Assembly: GCA_938002955.1 (NCBI GenBank)
Contig: CALLAA010000143.1
Span: forward strand, 1 to 51,615
From: an uncultured Acidimicrobiales bacterium
GTDB taxonomy: Bacteria; Actinomycetota; Acidimicrobiia; Acidimicrobiales; SHLQ01
Direction: 5' to 3'
DNA: 51,615 nt
Shown: one piece after another, positions 17,825-43,886 of the stretch
How positions within the stretch are numbered: position 1 is the first letter of the stretch
Layout of the letters: the number at the start of each line of letters is the position of its first letter
Made by a program: the position numbers and the translations under genes
The notes under the pieces: model-generated
Told to the model about the DNA's origin: nothing
Database searches by the model: none
What the model saw: the letters and a program-made list of their open reading frames with translations, nothing else

Positions 17825-19276
17825 CTAGGAGAGACGATTCTCGGGACCGAAGCGAGAACGGGTTGCGGCCCGATCGACCTTGCCCATGGGGTTTCGGGGA
17901 AGCGACGAGACGGCGATGATTGCGTCGACGGGCAGGTTGCTTGCTTCGGTGATGCCCATTGCGAGTTCGATGAGATCCAATCGGTCGGCGCCGACGAACT
18001 CGGGAGCGGCGACGACAGCGAGACCGACGATCTGCCCAAGGCGGTCGTCGGAGATGCCGACAGCGCACGCTTCGGCAACGAAGTCAGCGTCGCAGGCTGC
18101 AGCCTCGAGGGCTGTTGGGTCGATATTCGTGCCGCCGCGGATGATCAGGTCGCTGATTCGGCCGATGACCGACAGGGCGCCATCGGCGTCGAGCCGTCCA
18201 ATGTCGCCGGTGTGTAGTGCGCCGTTGCGGAACAGCTGTGCGGTCCGCTCCGGGTCATCGAGGTAGCCGAGCGTCCCGGTCCAGGTTCGGGCCCAAGGGC
18301 CGGTTGTGGAAGGGCGTAGGCAGATCTCGCCTTCGACTCCTGGCTCAGCGAGCGCGGTGTTCGTGCTGACGATATCGATCTCGATGTGGGGGAGGGGAAA
18401 CCCTCGCCCGCTGCCGATGGGGTCGTCGAGCGATTCGCGCACGACGCCGGTTGGGGCTTCGCTCATGCCGTAACTGAGCGTTGGACGAACACCGAACCGC
18501 GTCGCGAAGCGGGCGAGAAGCTCTGGGGCGGCTCCCGAGCCGCCGAGAATGACACGATCGAGTCCATCGAGTTGTTCGGTGACGACGGTGTCGCTCTCGA
18601 GGAGATCAAAGGCCAGAGCCGGCACCGCAAAGAGACGGGTGACGCCATGTGTGGCGATGTCGGCGGCGAGCGTTGGCCCATACCGGCTTCCCATCACGAC
18701 AAAGGTGGTTCCGCGAAGCAAGGCCGAAAGTGGGCCGAGCATGAAGATGTTGGCGTTGCCGAGATCGAGCGGGGTGCCGATGCGCTCATCGGGCGTCGGC
18801 GGCTCGAGTTCGACACTGATCAGGCCGGGTCCAAGCAGCGTGTGTTGACTATGCACAACCGCTTTGGGAGTACCGGTTGTGCCAGAGGTAAACGCGACCA
18901 CAGCCGGAGCATACGGGTCCAAGATTTGTGAGCGATTCTGCAGGCTGAGGCTGCAAAATCGCTCACAAATCTTTGTGGGGTCGGTTGGGCTGGCGAGCCA
19001 AATGGCTCCGGCTCGAAATGTCGCCAGGATCGAAATGACCTTGTCGGCTGAATTGCCCGGTGGCCACCAGCAGCATTGGCCTGGAGAGATCGTGCGAGCG
19101 ACTTGCCCAACCGCGTGGTCGAGTTCGGACCAGGTCCACGACAGTTCGCCGTCGATCAGTGCCAGGCGCTCGGGATGTTCGGCGAGGCCGGCGTCGAGGA
19201 CCGACGCAACGTCGGCTGGCCCAAAGGGGTATGGGCGAGGTGTGGGGTGTTGGTACAGCCCGTCGGTGTTGAGCAA
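17825..19276 (-). CDS. AMP-binding acyl-CoA synthetase/ligase family protein with in-frame palindromic repeat
   Basis: 483 residues of the ANL adenylating superfamily: P-loop FTSGTTGTPK (129-138), YGMSEAPTG, GDIGRLDADG, GRISDLIIRGG and the C-terminal catalytic lysine in PRNPMGKVDR. The chain activates a carboxylic acid with ATP, probably for CoA transfer. Residues 102-118 (KICERFCSLSLQNRSQI) are encoded by a palindromic DNA repeat found twice more near 42.5 kb. The segment between the first helical region and the P-loop is also about 40-60 residues shorter than usual, so the repeat may mark a deletion. The start is a TTG at 19276, eight bases after the HD gene stop; this is uncertain. Activity is plausible because the core motifs are intact. 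Confidence 0.85.
   Translation of the reverse strand: MLNTDGLYQHPTPRPYPFGPADVASVLDAGLAEHPERLALIDGELSWTWSELDHAVGQVARTISPGQCCWWPPGNSADKVISILATFRAGAIWLASPTDPTKICERFCSLSLQNRSQILDPYAPAVVAFTSGTTGTPKAVVHSQHTLLGPGLISVELEPPTPDERIGTPLDLGNANIFMLGPLSALLRGTTFVVMGSRYGPTLAADIATHGVTRLFAVPALAFDLLESDTVVTEQLDGLDRVILGGSGAAPELLARFATRFGVRPTLSYGMSEAPTGVVRESLDDPIGSGRGFPLPHIEIDIVSTNTALAEPGVEGEICLRPSTTGPWARTWTGTLGYLDDPERTAQLFRNGALHTGDIGRLDADGALSVIGRISDLIIRGGTNIDPTALEAAACDADFVAEACAVGISDDRLGQIVGLAVVAAPEFVGADRLDLIELAMGITEASNLPVDAIIAVSSLPRNPMGKVDRAATRSRFGPENRLS
18921..18973. repeat. Palindromic repeat copy A, inside the AMP-binding gene
   Basis: A 53-base near-perfect palindrome: arms of 23 bases with one mismatch around a seven-base GCTGAGG loop. 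The outer 14 bases on one side and 21 on the other are identical to the copies at 42461 and 42520. On the gene strand it is read in frame, without stops, as KICERFCSLSLQNRSQI, just upstream of the ATP-binding P-loop. Confidence 0.9.
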
Positions 19277-41915: not shown

Positions 41916-41960
41916 CAGAAGTCCCCGTAGTAGAAGTCCCCGTATTAGAAGTCAGGGTGC
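41916..41960. repeat. Three 15-bp tandem units at and beyond the NUDIX 3' end
   Basis: Units begin CAGAAGTC, TAGAAGTC and TAGAAGTC; the first two continue CCCGTA(g/t). On the minus strand the gene ends HPDF-TAA and the same frame continues YGDFYYGDF-TGA, i.e. repeats of DFYYG follow the stop. This suggests slippage and a nonsense change that shortened a repetitive C-terminus. Confidence 0.8.
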
Positions 41961-42439
41961 TGGTCGGCGAGCATGATCGTGTGCGAGGGTGGGCCGTCGC
42001 GAAGGAGATCGGTGAGTCGGGCTCCGAGGTCGCGTGGGGCGAAGACCTCGTCTGACGTGACGATGTCCTCGAGCGACCACCACTTCAGCGTGGTGACGCC
42101 CTCGTCGAGAAGTTCTTGCTCAGTGAACTGTGGAGCGATCGCCTCGTCGATGGTTCGAGCAAAGAAGTACAGCTCGTTCTGGCCATCAAATCCGTGAAGC
42201 GGAAAGTGATGCGTCCGGTCCCAGATAGGACCGATGAGGTCGACGTCGCAAATGCCGGTCTCTTCGAGGAGTTCTCGCCGTGCTGCATCGTCTCGGCTTT
42301 CGTCGCCCTCGACACCCCCGCCTGGAGTGGCCCAAAACGAGCCGGTTGCCAGCTCGAATCGAACGAGCAGTACGCGATCGTTGGGGCTCATGGCCACCAC
42401 TCGGGCAGCGGGACGAAAGCGAGCGGTCGACGGAGGCAC
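41945..42439 (-). CDS. NUDIX hydrolase
   Basis: 164 residues with a complete NUDIX box (41-63: GGVEGDESRDDAARRELLEETGI, GX5EX7REUXEEXGU pattern), which binds Mg and cleaves a nucleoside diphosphate linked to X. Substrate not predictable. GTG start with TAGCCT exactly six bases upstream, divergent from hisS across 181 bases that hold two palindromic repeats. The last codons lie in a tandem 15-base repeat. Confidence 0.92.
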   Translation of the reverse strand: MPPSTARFRPAARVVAMSPNDRVLLVRFELATGSFWATPGGGVEGDESRDDAARRELLEETGICDVDLIGPIWDRTHHFPLHGFDGQNELYFFARTIDEAIAPQFTEQELLDEGVTTLKWWSLEDIVTSDEVFAPRDLGARLTDLLRDGPPSHTIMLADQHPDF

Positions 42440-42460: not shown

Positions 42461-42506
42461 ATTTGTGAGCGATCGCGCTCGCTCAGCCTGCAAAATCGCT
42501 CACAAA
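42461..42506. repeat. Palindromic repeat copy B (NUDIX-hisS gap)
   Basis: Arms TTTGTGAGCGAT / ATCGCTCACAAA enclose a GC-rich centre that can also pair as TGAGCG / CGCTCA. It is identical to copy C over 46 bases and shares both ends with copy A at 18921. The 60-base period to copy C equals 20 codons. Confidence 0.9.
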
Positions 42507-42519
42507 AGCCTCGACGCAG

Positions 42520-42568
42520 GATTTGTGAGCGATCGCGCTCGCTCAGCCTGCAAAATCGCTCACAAATC
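42520..42568. repeat. Palindromic repeat copy C (NUDIX-hisS gap)
   Basis: A 49-base unit of the same length and ends as copy A, with a different centre. All three are open in the frame giving ICERxxSLSLQNRSQ, and here also in the hisS frame (VSDRARSACKIAHKS). Confidence 0.9.
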
Positions 42569-42606
42569 CCTGGACTTGGGAGGCGATGGTGCCCGTTGTG
42601 GCGCAG

Positions 42607-42620: not shown

Positions 42621-43886
42621 GTGGCTACGTCGAAATTTCAAGCGCTTCGCGGTATGCGCGACATCATGAGTCCGGACGCTGAGCGTCAGCGCGCTCTCGT
42701 CGATGCGTTCGCCGATCTCGCCCGTCTCTCGGGGTATGGCCACATCATGTCGCCCATCGTCGAAGACCTCGGGGTGTTTCTCCGCGTCGGCGAATCGACC
42801 GATGTCGTCACCAAAGAGATGTACGACTTCGAAGACAAGGATGGCACTCGCATCGCCATGCGCCCCGAGCTCACTGCATCGGTCGTTCGTGCATTTGTCC
42901 AACACAACCCGACGAGCCTTCCGTGGAAGGTCTGGTACGAGGGGCCCCAATTCCGCCACGAGAAGCCACAAGCTGGCCGTTATCGCCAATTCAGTCAGGT
43001 TGGTATCGAGGTGCTCGGTAGCGACGACCCCGCTGTCGATGTCGAGGTCATTGCGCTTGGTTGGCGCTTCTATCAAGCGCTCGGTATGAACGAGGTGACG
43101 CTGCTTCTCAACTCCCTCGGCGACGAGTCGTGTCGACCGCAGTACTTCGAAGCGCTCGAGACATACTTACGCGACCGATCAGCAGAGCTCAGCGAAAAGT
43201 CCCAGGAAACACTCGACAAAAACCCGCTCCGAGTACTCGACAGCAAGCGACGCGAAGATCAGCAGATCATCGCCGAGGCGCCGCTCATGGTGGACTTCCT
43301 GACCGAGGACAGCGCCGAGCACTTCGCTGCCGTCCGGTCCGGCCTCGAGTCGCTCGGCATTCCCTATGAAATCTCACCTCGCTTGGTACGAGGCCTCGAC
43401 TACTACACCCGCACGACCTTCGAGTTCGCGTCGACAGCGCTCGAGAACGCTCAGAATGCGGTTGGTGGCGGCGGCCGCTACGACGGTCTCGCCGAAAGTC
43501 TTGGAGGTAAACCAACCCCCGGCATCGGATTTGCCCTCGGTGTTGACCGGATCCTGCTTGCGTGTGACGCGGAGGGGGTCTTCCCAGCGCCGGACCTCGC
43601 ACCCGATGTCTTTATTGTCGATCTTGTCGGCGGCGGGGAAGCAACCGCACTCGCCGATCAGCTTCGCCAAGCCGGCATCGCCGCCGATCGCGGTTTCGAC
43701 GGCCGGTCGATGAAAGCCCAGATGAAAGTTGCTGATCGTTCGGCGGCACCGTGGGCGGTGATCATCGGCGAGACAGAACTCGCCGAAGGCAATGTCACAC
43801 TCCGCGACATGTACGGCGACAGCGGCCAGACTCTCGTAAGCCGAGATGATCTGGTTGCCACGCTGACCGCCAAGCTGGCGAACTAA
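42621..43886 (+). CDS. hisS: Histidyl-tRNA synthetase
   Basis: 421 residues, class II. Motif 2 is YEGPQFRHEKPQAGRYRQF, the histidine motif is GLDYYTRTTFEF, motif 3 is GIGFALGVDR, and an anticodon-binding domain closes the protein. The GTG at 42621 gives VATSKFQALRGMRD, the standard family beginning. The frame is open far upstream through both palindromic repeats, but that extension has no homology and lies in a promoter region, so I exclude it. aspS follows 51 bases later. Confidence 0.96.
   Translation: MATSKFQALRGMRDIMSPDAERQRALVDAFADLARLSGYGHIMSPIVEDLGVFLRVGESTDVVTKEMYDFEDKDGTRIAMRPELTASVVRAFVQHNPTSLPWKVWYEGPQFRHEKPQAGRYRQFSQVGIEVLGSDDPAVDVEVIALGWRFYQALGMNEVTLLLNSLGDESCRPQYFEALETYLRDRSAELSEKSQETLDKNPLRVLDSKRREDQQIIAEAPLMVDFLTEDSAEHFAAVRSGLESLGIPYEISPRLVRGLDYYTRTTFEFASTALENAQNAVGGGGRYDGLAESLGGKPTPGIGFALGVDRILLACDAEGVFPAPDLAPDVFIVDLVGGGEATALADQLRQAGIAADRGFDGRSMKAQMKVADRSAAPWAVIIGETELAEGNVTLRDMYGDSGQTLVSRDDLVATLTAKLAN

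Follow-up and report, generated by a model that had tools for sequence, protein, structure and literature searches.

A dispersed 45-bp palindrome family in an Acidimicrobiales genome and its association with genes for predicted AbiEi-like nucleases

A near-perfect palindrome of about 45 bp, one copy of which is read in frame through an acyl-CoA ligase gene, is dispersed through a 3.9-Mb Acidimicrobiales MAG (hereafter G000) and flanks a gene for a predicted nuclease. Palindromes of this kind are associated with such nuclease genes in related genomes, their sequences are private to individual gene lineages, a palindrome type co-occurs with its gene, and different palindromes occupy orthologous sites in different species. 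We consider it probable that the palindrome is the non-autonomous half of a two-part selfish system in which the predicted nuclease is the partner.

The palindrome in the ligase gene and its dispersed copies

The window, by which we mean the whole 51,615-nucleotide stretch of DNA that was analysed, contains a 483 aa ORF on the minus strand (17825..19276) for an acyl-CoA ligase of the ANL superfamily, with the domains AMP-binding (PF00501, E=1e-38) and AMP-binding_C. As an earlier note on this DNA had observed, a 53-bp palindrome (18921..18973, AAGATTTGTGAGCGATTCTGCAGGCTGAGGCTGCAAAATCGCTCACAAATCTT; 45-bp core 18925-18969) lies in frame within this gene, where it reads on the minus strand as ...KICERFCSLSLQNRSQI... 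and has a single mismatched arm pair as well as a mismatched centre. It encodes residues ~101-118 (TKICERFCSLSLQNRSQI), directly N-terminal of the FTSGTTG P-loop. The structure model of the ligase is confident overall (pLDDT 87.5) and reaches its minimum (57-63) over the element, as would be expected for a tolerated variable segment.

Among the same-genus orthologues of the ligase, only that of the sister species G008 (86% identical) carries the element. Both the repeat DNA and the peptide are missing from all seven others (47-63% identical), none of which encodes the peptide without the DNA repeat. A degenerate palindrome in the G010 ligase was considered and rejected: its linker peptide is vaguely alike, yet the DNA holds no palindrome. 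The W-to-FT linker spans 36 residues here compared with 33-58 in the seven genus orthologues and, since 17 of the 36 belong to the element, 19 are left, fewer than in any other genus orthologue. This short remainder makes it likely that, as the earlier note suggested, insertion was accompanied by loss of neighbouring sequence, although the linker itself is hypervariable. Outside the element, the comparison of G000 with G008 gives a dN of 0.082 and a dS of 0.479, and judging by the sequences the gene is functional and under purifying selection. The palindrome part has 0 synonymous changes in 11.3 sites relative to G008 (pS elsewhere 0.35) and 1 difference in 54 nt, compared with a gene mean of 8.

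A search of G000 with TTTGTGAGCGAT-N21-ATCGCTCACAAA gives 22 matches at 21 distinct sites, one site being counted twice because contigs C218 and C226 both end in it; the reversed control gives 0, so the palindrome recurs beyond chance. A covariance model adds five further diverged copies (C32, C85, C142 and two at C48) for 26 distinct copies, a count from which very diverged ones may be missing given these pattern and covariance model searches. With this many copies in the genome and no repeat in the ligases of seven congeners, the view that a dispersed repeat interrupts the ligase holds. All 26 copies share a 45-bp core, the outer arms of which are nearly invariant while the inner 21 bp vary, with termini TTTGTG...CACAAA and flanks of AAGA/TCTT or similar. 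The arm TTGTGAGCG (18925-18969, and in all copies) is similar to a lac operator half-site, which is probably a coincidence; related families have different arms. A search of Rfam returned no family above the gathering score, and a known RNA element was rejected, the sub-threshold matches being miRNA noise only. Single 12-mers resembling uptake sequences were also rejected, as each exact TTTGTGAGCGAT in the window belongs to a pair.

Two further copies lie 23 kb from the ligase copy, in the 181-bp gap between the divergent genes for a NUDIX hydrolase (41945..42439, minus strand) and histidyl-tRNA synthetase (hisS, 42621..43886, plus strand). They form a tandem pair, unstranded, at 42461..42506 (core 42462-42506) and 42519..42569 (core 42522-42566), with a 15-bp spacer (42507..42521) equal in length to that of pairs elsewhere and in other species; across this class of palindromes the spacers of tandem pairs are 14-15 bp. 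The gene caller had placed the pair (42462/42522) inside hisS, which we reject as an over-called start since the Pfam domain begins after 42621. The earlier note had recognised both as intergenic relatives of the ligase copy, with which they do share outer arms and the 45-bp length. The peptide ICERxxSLSLQNRSQ that it read from all three copies is found on the matching strand only because all 40 distinct copy/strand sequences are open in that frame (and closed in one other), and the intergenic copies are non-coding. At a separate locus (L007:1501-1615, G000:C111), 14-15 bp separate a copy of the TTTGTGAGCGAT type from one of the GATTTGTACAG type, and this site is empty in G006.

The ligase copy is the only one of the 26 within a CDS, the others occupying gene ends or intergenic gaps. 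As judged with a simple codon-usage gene caller, 12 of the 22 copies with a resolvable neighbour supply its stop codon (TTTG-TGA); for a further 7, that codon is no more than 10 nt away. One copy (L067:754-798, G000:C177) is found directly 3' of an apparent 5S rRNA gene, judged by eye, and its terminator hairpin. Twelve of the 13 distinct exact-arm sites of G008 are common to G000, and most copies are old. At these 12 sites the arms are unchanged (0/288, an identity partly imposed by the exact-arm search) and the flanks are ~12% different. We found no clean single-event empty site with a target duplication, no consistent target duplication in copy flanks or aligned empty sites, and no parent transposon. 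Two contigs end in or near a palindrome (G000:C226:1-45 and G000:C218:97-141), C226 starting exactly with one, so these MAG assemblies are broken up by the repeats, and nuclease genes as well as copies may be hidden as a result.

The nuclease gene and its private palindromes

The candidate partner gene (C226:81-992) encodes a protein of 303 aa and has one palindrome upstream (C226:1, the same as C218:97) and two downstream (at 986 and 1046), with its stop codon supplied by the downstream palindrome. The N-terminal ~190 residues of the protein have the AbiEi fold, and the C-terminal half is a Vsr/DUF559/I-Bth0305I-like nuclease. AbiEi profiles (PADLOC) match it with E values down to 5e-27 and, in Pfam, DUF559 scores over its cut-off and MTES_1575 slightly under. 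The structure model (pLDDT 80.8) matches the AbiEi antitoxin 6y8q (E=5e-6) and the homing endonuclease I-Bth0305I (3r3p, E=3e-3, TMt 0.77) in Foldseek, and the profile matches 3r3p at E=5e-6. Residues D234, E245, D247 and H252 of the nuclease domain are invariant across 26 homologues, and these acidic and histidine residues align only partly, and not one-to-one, with I-Bth0305I.

A toxin-antitoxin operon was rejected, as no AbiEii nucleotidyltransferase is encoded by the ten ORFs examined beside six nuclease genes; these ORFs carry housekeeping-type domains, apart from one without a Pfam match. This orphan state argues against a toxin-antitoxin role for the nuclease. A phage or plasmid source was rejected as well (0 phage matches and three weak plasmid matches). 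The orthologous gene is palindrome-flanked in three species, namely G000 (TTTGTGAGCGAT), G004 (TTTGTGAAGGAT) and G006. It was not recovered from the G008 assembly although G008 has palindromes, and since the flank of the gene is missing there too, incompleteness of the assembly is possible.

Across the genus, 48 of 57 gene ends of homologues carry palindromes exceeding the 95% quantile of controls; for comparison, 7 of 92 ends of ordinary genes in the window score as palindromic, two of these being the same element. The palindrome sequence is private to each nuclease gene lineage. The upstream and downstream palindromes of one gene are within 2 of 14 nt of each other in 18 of 21 cases, compared with 8.6% between genes. 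The distances between proteins and those between arms are correlated (r=0.44 in the nonredundant set, a value reached in 0 of 5000 permutations), as both common descent and co-evolution would lead one to expect. The TCTGTGGAGTCT type is dispersed with 7 copies in G000, 9 in G008 and 13 in G010, and the TTTGAACCG type with 5 copies in G000, 6 in G008, 4 in G006 and 3 in G010 and none elsewhere in the genus, these four genomes being precisely those where its gene was found. The GATTTGTACAG type was met incidentally at many positions of the G000 and G008 genomes, and three of these positions surround gene C132. As these other palindrome types also disperse, we count four gene-palindrome pairs in G000.

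It is important to consider whether the palindromes might instead be operators for autorepression by the AbiEi-like protein, with the scattered copies forming a regulon and the nuclease domain idle in mobility. AbiEi antitoxins autoregulate via paired 23-bp inverted repeats (PMC7319586), near the size of the 45-49 bp units described here, and 25 of 27 genus nuclease genes have an upstream palindrome. Downstream palindromes, however, are almost equally frequent (21 of 26), most of the dispersed copies lie at 3' ends, where they overlap stop codons, and one falls within a CDS, and the invariance of the four nuclease residues in 26 proteins also tells against an idle domain. We regard the operator explanation as unlikely.

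The pairing of gene and private palindrome also recurs beyond the genus, across the Actinomycetota. Of 199 Actinomycetota genomes sampled there, 109 encode an AbiEi-nuclease protein, and palindromes are present at 46 of 138 sampled gene ends versus 5 of 276 control ends. There is no above-cut-off palindrome at 36 of the 69 sampled non-genus homologues; the gene-palindrome link is either not universal or has decayed. Palindromes taken from 12 non-genus genomes have further matches in most of these genomes and few in G051, G261 and G404. Whether these genes constitute an undescribed phylum-wide selfish class in the Actinomycetota seems to us evenly balanced; in such a class each orphan AbiEi-nuclease gene would disperse a private ~45-bp palindrome over its genome and hold every copy to its own binding specificity through gene conversion driven by cutting, so that a change of the nuclease would alter entire palindrome families in concert.

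Different palindromes at orthologous sites and the proposed mechanism

At one orthologous site the arms are TTTGTGAGCGAT in G000, TTTGTGAAGGAT in G006 and TTTGTACACGG in G010, with identical immediate flanks in all three (GTT on the left and TCT on the right). A second site holds a palindrome pair with a 15-bp spacer in G000, G006 and G010, again with arms that differ between these species, and is empty in G005, and one G004 copy is positionally orthologous to a G000 copy (L133/L011). The presence of different palindromes at orthologous sites in different species implies genome-wide homogenisation, in which both arms appear to be switched jointly, genome by genome, toward the version found beside the nuclease gene of that genome. 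That palindromes were instead inserted repeatedly into one hot spot seems less likely. In two loci of G000 (L144:1493-1597 in C48 and L143 in C142) one arm is altered (TTTGTGATGGAT or TTTGTGAGCGTT) and the second is standard; these copies are perhaps intermediates of arm replacement.

The first part of the system we propose would be a nuclease encoded by one gene, in which an AbiEi-like winged helix for DNA binding forms the N-terminal module and a Vsr/DUF559/I-Bth0305I-like domain the C-terminal one, and the second would be the ~45-bp near-perfect palindrome that flanks the nuclease gene and is scattered elsewhere. The site bound by AbiEi consists of two 23-bp inverted repeats separated by 3 bp (PMC7319586), and I-Bth0305I dimerises on a target of nearly 60 bp (PMC3943268), target sizes that would make a dimeric fusion protein on a 45-55 bp palindrome natural. 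Two nuclease monomers would bind the two ~22-bp half-sites and nick or cut at the bound palindrome, repair off another copy would carry the palindrome to new sites, and old copies would be rewritten to the version recognised by the current nuclease. Surviving copies would be those mostly in harmless positions, at the 3' ends of genes, and the ligase copy may have persisted because its insertion left the reading frame intact and hit a linker that is variable.

The 3'-end placement is also compatible with copies that are kept as bidirectional 3'-end hairpins, acting as terminators or mRNA stabilisers, with the nuclease having only delivered them or being unrelated to their upkeep. The frequency with which copies hold a neighbour's stop codon (12 of 22, with 7 more close by) speaks for this, as do arms that stay constant at the 12 G000/G008 sites within diverged flanks. 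A hairpin function, however, needs structure and not a conserved arm sequence equal to the version of the local nuclease gene, and neither the species-wide switching of arms at one site nor the tandem pairs in a divergent gap and the copy in a CDS fit it. The ligase copy, with no synonymous change in 11 sites, also weighs against this explanation, which we hold to be quite improbable. Mobilisation as an ordinary REP/RAYT or MITE by a Y1 (IS200-like) or other resident transposase is highly improbable: Y1_Tnp genes are present in 11 of 11 genus genomes and REPs likewise prefer 3' ends and stop codons (PMC3733652), but the 35 examined Y1_Tnp loci of the genus, including all five in G000, have 0 matches to the palindrome, several of them have their own, different palindromes, the palindrome lacks the GTAG/CGTC tag that REPs bear at one end, and the nuclease gene, unlike the transposases, is palindrome-flanked in three species.

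Relation to known systems

The earlier note had likened the ligase insertion to the RPE of Rickettsia. An in-frame palindrome in a metabolic gene with one frame always open is common to both, but the RPE unit is ~150 bp rather than 45-53 bp, and nearly half of the R. conorii copies lie in ORFs (PMC10969869) as opposed to 1 of 26 here. A partner nuclease was found for the present palindrome, so its explanation differs, and the reading as an RPE-like invader of genes is not supported.

The nuclease itself shares its fold with the I-Bth0305I/EDxHD homing endonucleases, and the ~60 bp dimer target of I-Bth0305I (PMC3943268) is near the palindrome length; here, in contrast, there is no intron or inserted allele, the AbiEi module is predicted to bind the DNA, and repeats are scattered without the nuclease gene. 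With the AbiE type IV toxin-antitoxin system it shares the AbiEi fold and a site organisation that matches the paired 23-bp inverted repeats of AbiEi, but it is an orphan, with no AbiEii toxin beside the examined genes, and has a nuclease domain fused at the C-terminus.

We found no report in the open-licence literature that links AbiEi/DUF559 proteins with palindromic repeats. MTES_1575 has been described as the Vsr-type domain of a HEPN fusion protein, and the passages of that source that were consulted do not mention palindromes (PMC3710099). The enzyme-repeat pairing fits no known family and we therefore judge it new; it would be a variant only if every palindrome with a dedicated enzyme were taken as one kind. 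If the two-part selfish system is real, it would represent a second route to interspersed bacterial palindromes after REP/RAYT, enzymatically unrelated to it, and would suggest a possible role for the many orphan AbiEi/DUF559 proteins. It would also allow the co-evolution of a nuclease with dozens of target copies to be read directly from genomes, and would be a source of cognate pairs of nucleases and 45-bp sites with many specificities.

In organisation the pairing resembles the REP/RAYT systems (REPtrons), in which short palindromes are also dispersed singly and in pairs, a cognate single-copy enzyme gene lies between repeats with several gene-repeat pairs per genome, and the repeats are mainly extragenic, 3' of genes and usable as stop codons (PMC3733652). 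The differences are the enzyme, which is AbiEi-like with a Vsr/I-Bth0305I-like nuclease rather than the HUH/Y1 transposase of RAYT, and the length of 45-53 bp compared with 20-40 bp for REPs. A separate REP/RAYT set is present in the same genomes, consisting of Y1_Tnp (RAYT-like) genes flanked by palindromes of their own such as AGGTACCTGGTACCT, TTAGGGACAGTCCCTAA and AGGTGCCTGGCACCT, at L105 (G000:C145), L111 (G008:C278), L115 (G010:C88) and L122 (G007:C101).
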